A stretch of DNA of 61,887 nucleotides, taken from Sphingomonadales bacterium (GTDB taxonomy: Bacteria > Pseudomonadota > Alphaproteobacteria > Sphingomonadales > Sphingomonadaceae). The translations under genes were made by a program, and so were the position numbers. The notes under the pieces were generated by a model. The model was not told the origin of the DNA. It made no database searches and worked only from the letters and a program-made list of their open reading frames with translations. Below are positions 42,104 through 46,592 of the stretch, in pieces; positions within the stretch are counted from its first letter, which is position 1, and the number at the start of each line of letters is the position of its first letter. The DNA is taken from NCBI GenBank assembly GCA_947470185.1, contig CANIRZ010000006.1:1-61887 (forward strand), written 5' to 3'.

Positions 42104-44833
42104 TCAATACGCCCCGTGACAGTGCTTATATTTCTGCCCCGAACCACATGGGCACGGATCATTACGCCGCAGGTCCGGATTGCCAGCATAAGGGTCGTTT
42201 AATCCCGAAGCTATTGCCGGACGCGGTATCGTTGTCGTGACGAACCCCGATGAACCAGCATCAATGTCGTCGCTATTATCTTCACCGGTAAAAGGATCGA
42301 TATGCGTCGTCAGAAAATCTGGCAATGCGGGCAAGTCCGGTGGAACGAATTCTTCTTCGGCCCGGAAGTCATTCGTCGCGATCGTCTTCGTCACACCTTC
42401 ACGAATTGCGGACAACATCCGCTCAAACAGGCCAAAGGCCTCTTGCTTATACTCGTTTACTGGGTTCTTCTGCGCGTAGGCGCGTAGATATATAACCTGA
42501 CGCAAGGCATCGAGCGTGGACAGATGTTCTTTCCAGTGATGATCAAGCGTTTGCAGCAATATACTCTTTTCAACCTGCCGCCAGACGGCCTCATCAAGCA
42601 CAGCGCCCTTCGCTTTGAACTTGGCATTGGCCATTTCCGACACACGGTTTTCAATGGTTTCCGGATCAAGTCCGTCTTCCTGTATCCAGCTGTCAATATC
42701 TGGGGCAAGGCCAAGCAATTCAGCGCATTTTTGCTTAAGGGACTCAACGTCCCATTGTTCCGGATAGGTACCCTCGGGGCAGTAATCGCCGACAAGAGTA
42801 TTCACGGTGTCGTTAAGCATGTCCTCAATGATATCATCGACGCCTTCGGAATCCATGATCTCGCTGCGCTGATCATAGATAACCTTGCGTTGATCGTTCA
42901 TAACATCGTCATATTCAACGAGTTGCTTACGAATGTCGTAGTTACGCGCTTCCACCTTGCGTTGCGCCGTTTCGATTGCCTTCGATAGCCACTTGCCGCC
43001 AATCGCTTCGCCGTCTTCCAAGCTTGAGTTCATCATCCGCGAGAACAAAGTCTCCGAACCAAAAATGCGCAACAGATCGTCATCAAGTGACAGATAGAAG
43101 CGCGAAAGACCCGGGTCACCCTGTCGACCCGAACGACCGCGCAACTGGTTATCGATGCGGCGGCTTTCATGGCGCTCGGTGGCAAGAACGAACAATCCGC
43201 CAGCCTCTATCACCTTGGCTTTTTCGGCCGCAATTTCGGCCTTCAGCGCGTCGATAGCGGCTTCACGTTCTTGCCCCTCGGGCATGTCGCGTAATTCATC
43301 TTCAAGGCGGAATTCAAAGTTACCACCAAGCTGAATATCCGTTCCACGGCCAGCCATGTTGGTGGCGATCGTTACGCTATCCAAACGCCCCGCTTGGGCG
43401 ACGATACGTGCTTCACTTTCGTGGAAGCGTGCATTCAAGACGCTATGCTTGACGCCTTCCTTCTCCAAAAATTCCGAAAGCAGCTCGGACTTTTCAATGG
43501 ACACTGTGCCCACCAGAACGGGCTGACCACGATCATTGGCTTCTTTGATCGTCTTGGCGATTGCGCCAAATTTGTCTTGCGTGTTTTTGTAGAACTGGTC
43601 GTCCTCGTCAATGCGCTGGACTGGCAGGTTCGTTGGTATTTCAACAACGTTGAGCTTGTAGATCTCATGGAATTCGCCTGCCTCAGTTGCGGCGGTTCCC
43701 GTCATGCCCGACAGCTTCGGGTACATGCGGAAATAATTCTGGAATGTAATGGTCGCCAACGTCTGGTTTTCTGGCTCAATCTCCACGCCTTCTTTCGCCT
43801 CGACAGCTTGGTGAAGCCCGTTCGACCAGCGGCGTCCGTCCATCATACGACCGGTAAATTCGTCGATGATGATAACTTTGCCTTCTTTCACGATGTAATC
43901 AATGTCGCGCTTGAACATCACATTGGCTTTGAGCGCTTGGTCCAAATGATGCACGACCAGTGTGTTTTCATAGTCATACAGGTTTGACCCCGTCAGCAAG
44001 CCAGCGCCTTCCAATATACGCTCGGCTTTTTCTGTGCCATCTTCGGTAAGCGTCACATTGCGGCTTTTTTCGTCTTTATCATAATCGCCCTCGTCCAGTT
44101 GAAGGACAACGGCCTGGACCAGCATGTAAAGCTCTGATTTGTCGTCTGTTGGACCAGAAATGATCAACGGCGTGCGTGCTTCATCAACAAGGATAGAATC
44201 AACCTCATCGACAATTGCGAAGTTGAATGGACGCTGCACCATTTGCGCGCGTTCATATTTCATATTGTCGCGCAAATAATCGAAACCAAGCTCATTGTTG
44301 GTTGCGTATGTGATGTCGCTTTCATACGCGGCACGGCGTTCATGCTCGGCAATGTTTGGAACAACCACGCCCGTAGTGAGACCGAGGAAGCCATATATAC
44401 GGCCCATCCATTCGGCGTCGCGGCGTGCCAAATAGTCGTTCACGGTTACGACATGGACACCCTTGCCTTCAATGGCGTTGAGGTAGCAGGCCAATGTTTC
44501 GGTCAGGGTCTTACCTTCCCCCGTGCGCATTTCGGCGATCTCGCCGCGATGCAAAACAATACCGCCAACCATCTGCACGTCAAAATGGCGCATGCCCATA
44601 ACGCGCTTTGATGCTTCCCGCACTGTGGCGAAGGCCTCAGGCAGGATATCATCAAGCGTTTCGCCAGCGGCGAGCCTGTCGCGGAATATCTGCGTTTGAC
44701 CCTTCAACCGGTCATCATCCATGACCGAGATTTCGGCTTCAAGCGCGTTGATCTGGTCAACGATCTTCATGATTGATTTAACGTAACGGTCGTTCGACGA
44801 CCCAAAAATGGCTTTGGCAAGTCCGCCGAGCAT
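42104..44833 (-). CDS. secA: Preprotein translocase ATPase SecA
   Basis: SecA drives proteins through SecYEG. The 909-residue product has Walker A MRTGEGKT, the DEAD-type [21 protein letters not shown], the preprotein cross-linking region, [16 protein letters not shown] (motif V), [13 protein letters not shown] (motif VI), the helical scaffold and wing domains, and the C-terminal zinc-binding tail [14 protein letters not shown] used to contact SecB and ribosomes. ATG 44833 has AAAGGA 7 nt upstream; that SD can pair with the spacer behind the small exported-protein ORF upstream. Confidence 0.97.
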
Positions 44834-44841
44834 AGATAATT

Positions 44842-44909
44842 CCTTTGAAATATGTGGGAGACGCGCACGTTTGGCGCGCGGTAGGTAGCTATTAAACGCA
44901 CCCCAAAGG
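44842..44909 (-). promoter_or_regulatory. Potential secA SD-sequestering pairing in the secA leader
   Basis: On the minus strand, CCTTTG (44909-44904) is the exact reverse complement of CAAAGG (44847-44842), which contains the secA SD. The pairing can be extended by G-T and A-T pairs on the loop side. The left arm begins about 12 nt after the stop codon of the 90-residue ORF and can also form a local GCGCCC-TTTG-GGGTGC hairpin. Thus a ribosome sitting at the end of the upstream ORF could free the SD. This is a structural reading only. Confidence 0.4.
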
Positions 44910-44920
44910 GCGCAGAAAGC

Positions 44921-45193
44921 CTAACCTAAGATGATATCGTGCCGGTCAACCGGCGTATCTGACTTTACGGGAGCCAGGTTCGCTTTACCGACGGCGGGTG
45001 CAAGTGACGCCTGCGCCTTCGCGGTCTCACGGACCACGGGTTCGCAAGCGGCAACAACTTCAAGCCCAGACGCAGCAACATAAGCCTGCGCAACTGCTGA
45101 ATCCACTGATGCTGACGCAGAAGATACCGGACGCGCCGCCTCTGCAACGGAAAATCCGCTCATCATTGCCAGTAAATAGATCAGTAACCGCAT
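44921..45193 (-). CDS. Small exported protein encoded directly upstream of secA (possible SecM-like leader)
   Basis: The 90-residue product has a clear signal peptide (MRLLIYLLAMMSGFSVAEA, cleavage likely after AEA) and a short Ala/Ser/Val-rich mature part ending DTPVDRHDIILG. I do not recognise the family. It is on the same strand as secA and ends 87 bp before the secA ATG. That position and the export signal resemble E. coli SecM, whose secretion state controls secA translation. However, SecM's key arrest residues (W, I and the GIRAGP end) are not present, nor the RAPP/RAPG ends of the ApdA/ApdP type. ATG 45193 has an AGGCG 6 nt upstream. It may simply be a small periplasmic protein. Confidence 0.65.
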   Translation of the reverse strand: MRLLIYLLAMMSGFSVAEAARPVSSASASVDSAVAQAYVAASGLEVVAACEPVVRETAKAQASLAPAVGKANLAPVKSDTPVDRHDIILG

Positions 45194-45368
45194 ATGTCGC
45201 CTAGTTATGTGCCTGATGCATATAGGAGGGCAAAGCCTATCCGTCTATCCCGAAGCGACGTGTTTTGGGTGCATTGTCGGTTGCGCCAAAAGCGGCCAAC
45301 AGATAAACGACATGCTACATCCCCGCGTCATCGCCTTATATTTATAATTATTACAAGGTTTCAGATAC

Positions 45369-46592
45369 TTGTCTACAATTTCTCCATTATCCGTTCCCTT
45401 TCCCATCATGCCAGAAATCGCTGGCGTAACGCCGCGCGTTGCGCGCGCTGGGTATAAGGATTGGGACCGTAGCGACCTGACCTATGTCGTTTTGGATGAA
45501 GGAACGACCGTGGCCGGCGTGACTACACAGAATCTGTGCTGCTCGGCCGAGGTTGAACTGTGCCGCGCGCATCTGCCGCATGGCCGCGCACGGGCATTGG
45601 TCGTCAATGCAGGCAACAGCAATGCCTTCACGGGGCAGCGTGGCAAAGATGCTGTCGATGCGATCACTGCGCAGGTCGCTGCGCAATTAAACTGCGAAGA
45701 GGCAGAAATATTCGTGTCTTCAACCGGTGTGATTGGCGTCCCCCTGCCCGTCGACAAGGCGCAGGCCGGGCTTCGCGCTGCGTTCGATGCTGCACAGTGC
45801 AGTTGGGAAGACGTCACGCATGCTATTGGGACCACAGACACCTTTGCCAAAGGCGCCACAGCCAGCGCTATAGTCGATGGTCGCAAGGTGCATATTGTGG
45901 GCGTGATCAAGGGATCAGGCATGATTGCACCCGACATGGCCACCATGCTGGGCTATATCTTCACCGACGCCGCAATCGACGCCGCTTTTCTGCAGCATCT
46001 CTTATCTGGGGCCAATCAATCCAGTTTCAGCTGCATCACCGTCGACAGCGACACCTCCACCAGCGATACGGTGCTCGCATTTGCAACCGGCAAGGCAGGC
46101 AATGCGCGGCTGACCTCGTTCGATGACGTTGGAGCCGATGCTTTTGCTGCCGCGTTGAGTGACGTCTGCCGCCAATTGGCCCATTTGGTAGTTCGCGATG
46201 GCGAAGGCGCGCAGAAGTTTATCGAAATCCAAGTGTCTGGCGCCGCCAGCGACGAAAGCGCCCGGCGCGTAGGTTTGGCGATTGCCAATTCGCCCTTGGT
46301 AAAAACCGCGATTGCGGGCGAAGATGCCAATTGGGGCCGTGTCGTCATGGCGGTTGGGAAAGCCGGCGAGCCAGCAAACCGAGACACGCTCTCCATCCGC
46401 TTTGGCGCGACTTTAGTCGCACACAACGGACTTGCCGTTGCCAATTATGACGAGGCGCCCGTTGCGCGTCATTTGCAGCAAAAGGAAATCGAAATCGGCG
46501 TTGATCTGGGCCTCGGGTCTGGAAACGCCACAGTGTGGACATGTGATCTGACCCACGGTTATATCAGCATCAACGCCGATTATCGCAGTTAG
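45369..46592 (+). CDS. argJ: Bifunctional glutamate N-acetyltransferase / amino-acid acetyltransferase ArgJ
   Basis: ArgJ recycles the acetyl group of N-acetylornithine to glutamate in arginine synthesis. The 407-residue precursor contains the self-cleavage site in IAPDMATMLGYI (cleavage before the Thr of ATML), which gives alpha and beta chains. Other signatures are LVVNAGNSNAFTG, VSSTGVIGVPLP and the C-terminal ATVWTCDLTHGYISINADYRS. The start is TTG 45369 behind AAGG; the ATG at 45408 (MPEIAGV) is an alternative. It is divergent from the small ORF ahead of secA and converges on trxA (9 bp). Confidence 0.94.
   Translation: MSTISPLSVPFPIMPEIAGVTPRVARAGYKDWDRSDLTYVVLDEGTTVAGVTTQNLCCSAEVELCRAHLPHGRARALVVNAGNSNAFTGQRGKDAVDAITAQVAAQLNCEEAEIFVSSTGVIGVPLPVDKAQAGLRAAFDAAQCSWEDVTHAIGTTDTFAKGATASAIVDGRKVHIVGVIKGSGMIAPDMATMLGYIFTDAAIDAAFLQHLLSGANQSSFSCITVDSDTSTSDTVLAFATGKAGNARLTSFDDVGADAFAAALSDVCRQLAHLVVRDGEGAQKFIEIQVSGAASDESARRVGLAIANSPLVKTAIAGEDANWGRVVMAVGKAGEPANRDTLSIRFGATLVAHNGLAVANYDEAPVARHLQQKEIEIGVDLGLGSGNATVWTCDLTHGYISINADYRS

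Follow-up and report, generated by a model that had tools for sequence, protein, structure and literature searches.

The secA locus and its leader reading frame

The window analysed here, a stretch of 61,887 nucleotides from an incomplete metagenome-assembled genome of the genus Sphingorhabdus (1.48 Mb, completeness 63%), carries on its minus strand the gene secA (42104–44833, with its start at 44833). On the same strand, ahead of secA, lies a short open reading frame of 90 codons (44921–45193) that begins with ATG, ends in a TAG stop codon (44921–44923) and has orthologues in the same position. That this frame encodes 90 amino acids with a signal-like N-terminus and is separated from secA by 87 nt had been predicted originally, and both points are confirmed. 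The spacer contains the secA Shine-Dalgarno (SD) sequence AAAGGA (44841–44846, minus strand), with AAGGAATT unchanged across 21 aligned sequences, and a gene that we take to be argJ runs in the opposite direction farther upstream of the leader.

Codons 1–20 (45134–45193, minus strand) encode a Sec signal peptide, as judged by composition, which reads MRLLIYLLAMMSGFSVAEA and is followed by ARPV after a cleavage site placed by eye. At the other end, codons 80–90 (44924–44956, minus strand) encode TPVDRHDIILG, a C-terminus conserved among 21 members of the window's clade and the candidate arrest segment of the leader. About 60 residues separate the end of the signal from this segment, and about 70 separate it from the stop codon. 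The closest Sphingorhabdus records (11 loci) share 74–89% leader identity with the window. In Pfam and NCBIfam the window ORF had no match below E 0.14 and a set of 38 leaders gave three stray one-member matches (E 0.0014 to 0.0094), an Rfam search of 44700–45500 returned nothing better than E 6.3, and structure prediction from a shallow alignment of 13 sequences gave no confident fold for the leader (mean pLDDT 57.7, pTM 0.21).

Distribution of the leader family and its association with secA

The leader sequence alone retrieves only near relatives, and SecA was hence located first, in 290 of 298 family genomes. From these, 110 secA-upstream regions were taken (30 loci and 80 stretches) from the higher ranks of a list ordered by SecA similarity, with some rows skipped, so that the leader frequency that follows is not an unbiased one: a leader is present in 72 of the 110 regions (71 distinct sequences, spanning 36 genera among the regions examined, with genus labels typed from tables). 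Leader ORFs were chosen by signal, length and position, and their ends were not used; three were added by hand with a relaxed start codon (L043, L044 and L046), the starts of L038 and L097 were trimmed, a TonB_C protein (L084) was removed before counting, and two ORFs of 155 residues with an EEGAP-stop ending (L040 and L047), which lie beyond the length limit, were counted as leaderless. The 72 leaders measure 90.8 ± 4.3 residues and lie 105 ± 15 nt from secA. The remaining 38 regions have no leader by these criteria; in three (L040, L047 and L084) a different ORF with a signal occupies the place.

A profile built from 38 leaders was run on 296 genomes of the order and matches in 131, all in Sphingomonadaceae except for one weak partial match. 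At the level of the class it matches in 4 of 289 genomes, three of them in Sphingomonadaceae (the window genome included) and one weak, and within the window's genus it matches in 39 of 45 genomes. In the genomes searched, the leader family is thus confined to Sphingomonadaceae, weak matches aside. The original prediction would have been refuted had the ORF not stood next to secA in relatives, but it does: of the 133 profile matches in the order, 124 fall in genomes with a located secA (the other 9 are not assessable), and 122 of these 124 lie 86–163 nt ahead of secA on the same strand, the remaining two being second matches in genomes that also have a secA-adjacent one. Six of the 45 genomes of the window's genus have no profile match, two of the six being only 85–86% complete; together with the 38 leaderless regions, these genomes indicate that the control exerted by the leader would be dispensable. 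Presence and absence of the leader both occur inside a single genus. Among individual records, G465:C1:1790773-1790988 is a weak profile match with an internal stop and a possible remnant, and one genome (G511) has two profile matches on separate contigs, C10 and C96.

Promoter position and transcript

Upstream of the window leader we find a candidate −35 element, TAGACG (45242–45247, minus strand), followed after 17 nt by a candidate −10 element, TATATG (45219–45224, minus strand). TAGAC or TGGAC occupies the −35 place in 28 of 29 genus members as counted by eye, L182 being the exception. In 43 of 72 cases (0.3 expected) the 80 nt preceding the leader contain the promoter pattern used for the family (TTGAC-N15-20-TA[TC]NT); the window promoter is one base off this pattern and is therefore not among the 43. 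The same pattern occurs in none of the 72 spacers between leader and secA (0.15 expected), so that leader and secA are probably co-transcribed. In leaderless genomes secA itself has the pattern in the preceding 160 nt in 30 of 37 cases (0.05 expected), with the −10 element ending 53–106 nt from the secA start, which suggests that loss of the leader is accompanied by a promoter near secA; examples of leaderless regions are L034, L036, L041, L048 and L051–L055.

For 27 of the 43 matches to the pattern, no more than 6–13 nt separate the end of the −10 element from the leader start codon, and at so short a distance the leader mRNA may begin at or beside that codon. A second promoter-like site (TAGACA-17-AATAAT, 45375–45347, minus strand) lies farther upstream of the window leader.

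Constraint on the leader protein

Across 21 distinct members of the window's clade, dN/dS is 0.061 for residues 2–24, 0.173 for 25–45, 0.565 for 46–77 and 0.070 for 78–90; constraint on the leader is thus U-shaped, the signal and the C-terminus being held while the middle drifts. Residues D79, T80, P81, R84, H85, D86, L89 and G90 are invariant in all 21 members, and their codons vary. Codon 89 (44927–44929), which encodes the penultimate leucine, is TTA in 20 of the 21 while other codons vary, and either a rare-codon effect or pairing within the helix P1 described below could account for it.

The same concentration of constraint at the end appears across the family. Over 71 leaders the last five residues are most often D (52), R (52), A (35), L (31) and E (49), which gives a family ending D-R-A-x-E-stop, of which TPV-x-RHD-IILG-stop is the variant in the window; of this family motif the window's clade retains D(−5) and L(−2), having lost R(−4), A(−3) and E(−1). 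Intermediate endings exist, namely RHDVLHE and RHDLSRE in another genus (L045 and L060) and SRAERARE in the window's own genus (L037). Mean pairwise identity is 0.42 in the last five residues as against 0.14, 0.11 and 0.11 in the three preceding blocks, among leaders that had not been picked by their ends (L043, L044 and L046 being the hand-added ones). The C-terminal conservation on which the original prediction had staked its case is therefore borne out both within the clade (dN/dS 0.07 for residues 78–90 against 0.565 for 46–77) and, by D(−5), R(−4) and E(−1) in 52, 52 and 49 of 71 leaders, across the family, with kinship handled by genus tally only in these counts as in those of stop codons. 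At the N-terminus, all 71 leaders have an 11-residue stretch with a hydropathy of 2.07 or more and a site loosely resembling AxA, which is partly a result of selection, and a basic residue at positions 2–8 is found in only 56 of 71.

A scan for SecM and RAPP-like motifs found none in the 71 distinct leaders, the window included, and RAPP, RGPP, QAPP, HAPP, RAGP and RAPG are likewise absent near the C-terminus of all 71, so that the earlier statement that the window ORF has no SecM or RAPP-type end holds for the other leaders scanned as well.

Six of the 71 distinct leaders, in genera g52 and g89, end in GDK...EGAP-stop or GDR...GKP-stop and may represent a second kind of leader; they were kept in all counts, and their stops are TAG (4), TGA (1) and TAA (1), a small sample. 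In one genus (L040 and L047) the ORF ahead of secA is the 155-residue protein already mentioned, composed of a signal and a TonB_C domain and ending in GDKHELEEGAP-stop (PF03544, E 1.3e-8 for L040; L047 alike by eye), and in another genus (L059, L063, L071 and L089) leaders of 94–107 residues end in GDKLEH[EQ]EGAP-stop, of which L059, the one tested of that class, has no Pfam match. The EGAP-class leaders may have descended from a shortened TonB-like protein.

Stop-codon preference

The leaders terminate in TAG in 51 cases, TAA in 17 and TGA in 3 (n = 71), against a baseline of 49 TAG, 53 TAA and 144 TGA among 246 ORFs of at least 200 residues from 20 stretches of 20 kb. A naive binomial test places the TAG excess at 5e-21, a figure that treats as independent relatives that are not so; when the 36 genera are tallied instead, TAG is the commonest stop outright in 27 and shares first place in 3. 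The final Glu(−1) is encoded by GAA in 44 of 49 leaders, as against 54% GAA overall. Since a mature protein cannot sense its own stop codon, the TAG bias points to termination or to the RNA.

This observation bears directly on the reading of the ORF as an ordinary small periplasmic protein that chances to precede secA, a reading that leaves the stop-codon preference of the family unexplained. A signal peptide is what such a protein would carry, and in one family genome at least (L084) secA does follow a periplasmic protein with a TonB_C domain, but the leader has no known domain and, from its shallow alignment, no confident fold, its middle is almost free to vary, and it is tied to secA. We regard this reading as quite unlikely.

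RNA structure in the spacer

Within the window's genus the spacer has a fold that, as far as aligned sequences can tell, is conserved and consists of three elements, all on the minus strand. Helix P1 pairs TAGGT in the final leader codons (44924–44928) with ACCTA in the spacer (44882–44886) through five pairs, one of which is U-A in one subclade and G-C in another. Hairpin A (GCGCCC-TTTG-GGGTGC, 44898–44913) begins 7 nt after the stop and has 93.6% of cells paired over 21 sequences, and hairpin B (CGCGCGC-CAAAC-GTGCGCG, 44862–44880) has 95.2% paired over the same number. Taken together over the 21 clade members, P1, A and B have 95.5% of cells paired, against 92.7% in shuffles and 22–62% in slid versions, and 7 double-change cells against 1.7, although the three elements were drawn from the same sequences used for counting, which favours them. 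Pairs with double changes number 2 against 0.9, a value reached by 19 of 500 shuffles, and of these two pairs one reflects a single change between subclades and the other comes from one sequence; further pair types show no excess over shuffles (7 against 6.6), and the RNAalifold covariation term is small (−0.52).

The original prediction had placed the SecM geometry elsewhere, in the spacer sequence CCTTTG (44904–44909, minus strand), which was held to mask the secA SD until a paused ribosome frees it. The two segments, CCTTTG (44909–44904) and CAAAGG (44847–44842), are indeed complementary over six bases, CCTTTG starts 11 nt past the stop, and its CCTTT core is present in 20 of 21 clade spacers, at two places in two subclades. 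When the spacer is dinucleotide-shuffled 2000 times, a perfect complement of at least 6 nt to the 14-nt SD region nevertheless arises in 12.7% of cases. The original prediction had named a lack of covariation as refuting it, and the pairing shows no double change among the 21 clade members and no more paired cells than shuffles (81.7% against a mean of 82.1%); CCTTT is found in none of the 8 other genus members, and the bases concerned lie in or beside the loop of the better supported hairpin A, with which the proposed pairing clashes. In a model of the window with a stalled ribosome, moreover, the predicted accessibility of the SD falls, by 0.30. This exact geometry is very improbable.

Other routes from the leader end to the SD were also considered. 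In family-wide partition-function folding with a ribosome on the stop codon, SD accessibility changed by 0.034 on average, and by 0.016 in shuffled sequences (p = 0.75), so that relief of SD masking by a stalled ribosome shows no family-wide excess; predicted SD accessibility rises by 0.23–0.51 in a few lineages (L061, L095, L099, L107, L125, L127 and L130). Pairing between the leader end and the SD region was slightly stronger for own than for swapped partners (−7.94 against −7.27 kcal/mol; permutation p 0.0054 and mean rank 0.447, among relatives that share sequence), but in a stricter control, pairing with downstream RNA, the leader end shows no excess over interior segments (mean z −0.38 against −0.42). 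The best partners of the leader end overlap the SD in 5 of 72 cases (about 7%).

A further alternative is a cis-acting RNA leader working by transcription attenuation or helix switching, in which the conserved end matters chiefly as RNA, the ribosome acts as an ordinary translator and no peptide-specific arrest occurs. The spacer fold kept in the genus is what such a leader would show, as is the stronger folding of the first 42 nt after the stop (mean z −0.66 relative to shuffles, and −0.02 for the last 42), and the preferences for GAA and for TAG act at the nucleotide level; the TTA held at codon 89 speaks for it too. Of the 72 spacers, 12 contain terminator-like sites, some beginning 6–12 nt after the stop, where shuffling yields 5.3 ± 2.4, but the window has no intrinsic terminator-like site between 44780 and 45480, so that attenuation is possible in some lineages only. 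Against an RNA-only control stand also the C-terminal codons, which vary synonymously while the residues stay constant, the conserved signal peptide, and the family-wide equality of leader-end pairing with the interior control. On balance we find this alternative unlikely.

Comparison with known secretion monitors

Taken together, gene order and direction, promoter position, U-shaped constraint, the conserved C-terminus, the stop codon and the spacer fold of the genus form the basis for reading the window ORF as a secretion monitor. We consider it likely, on these sequence features, that the ORF belongs to a family of Sphingomonadaceae leaders that monitor Sec secretion and regulate secA through a ribosome pause at the stop codon or close to it. 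Against this reading weigh the null results on SD accessibility and leader-end pairing, the family-motif residues lost in the window's clade, the genomes that do without a leader, the leaders without an early basic residue and the narrow range of leader length. What survives of the SecM-like monitor first proposed is a putative new arrest end near the last residues; the SecM geometry through the CCTTTG anti-SD is not supported.

The likeness to Escherichia coli secM-secA lies in an exported leader that stands before secA, probably on one transcript, with constraint on signal and C-terminus, and the distance from signal to end, about 70 residues in the window, is similar to that of the short SecM class, whose homologues have a median of 71 residues (PMC10987492). 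The leader differs from SecM in having no F-x4-WI-x4-GIRAGP end, in a conserved end that abuts the stop codon, and in an SD stem-loop that is unsupported. The stop-codon arrest leaders of Bacteroidota and Clostridia, which end in NSP, NAP or DGMK and for which toeprints of the first two put the stop codon in the A site, the third being judged likely to behave alike (PMC10987492), are closer: they too are exported, lie ahead of sec genes and have conserved residues directly before the stop, here D(−5), R(−4) and E(−1). They differ from the present family in their endings, which here are D-R-A-x-E or RHDIILG, and in the strong UAG preference seen here, of which the excerpted text of PMC10987492 describes no equivalent for them. 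During a putative pause in the leader family the stop codon would likewise occupy the A site, as the stop-codon bias suggests.

Members of the ApdP/RQH family are likewise exported leaders of Sec genes, and ApdP is alphaproteobacterial (PMC10987492); ApdP, however, precedes secDF, and the RAPP-like motif of that family is absent from all 71 leaders here. CutF of Rhodobacter capsulatus is an alphaproteobacterial exported nascent protein whose C-terminus, together with an mRNA stem-loop, controls the next gene, but it differs in sensing copper, in controlling cutO and in its proline-rich C-terminus (PMC9973294). Like the monitoring substrates sought in PMC10987492, as the excerpted criteria describe them, the leader is a short ORF without assigned function that immediately precedes a sec/yidC gene, with an N-terminal signal (judged here by hydropathy and the loose AxA-like site), a conserved C-terminus and a stretch of over 30 residues from the signal to that C-terminus; its length varies less than that of most Sec monitors (PMC10987492). 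On present evidence, then, it would appear to work like a monitoring substrate, most like the stop-codon arrest leaders and, by motif, neither SecM nor RQH. The excerpted texts of two linked screens (PMC7897499 and PMC10987492) name no Sphingomonadales secA leader, nor do those of PMC12992588 and PMC9973294, and no title on such a leader stands among the openly licensed papers listed.

A proposed model of secretion-released arrest at the stop codon

The monitor reading can be spelled out as a sequence of steps, in which we infer the pause itself, its release by secretion, the role of release factor 1, and both the sign and the route of the effect on secA. The signal peptide would direct the nascent chain to SecA/SecYEG, and the conserved last residues would keep the ribosome waiting on the stop codon, in most cases UAG, or immediately ahead of it. 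Rapid secretion would pull on the chain and so end the pause; under slow secretion the ribosome would stay on the stop codon and melt RNA structure in which the last codons and the first spacer bases take part, in the window's genus helix P1 and hairpin A, and secA expression would rise. In its most specific form, which we put forward tentatively and as a whole, the nascent D-R-A-x-E (RHD-IILG in Sphingorhabdus) would block release factor 1 at UAG until translocation pulls on it, and in the window's clade the waiting ribosome would open an RNA helix to which the last codons and the stop contribute and so turn secA on. That same tentative reading would make the leader a force-sensitive termination arrest without proline, with a family-wide shift from UGA to UAG as its genomic sign.

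The lineages covered by known Sec monitors are few. If the model is true, a termination-stage arrest released by secretion would become testable in a large environmental family, and the stop-codon bias suggests itself as a simple genomic sign by which such leaders may be found.
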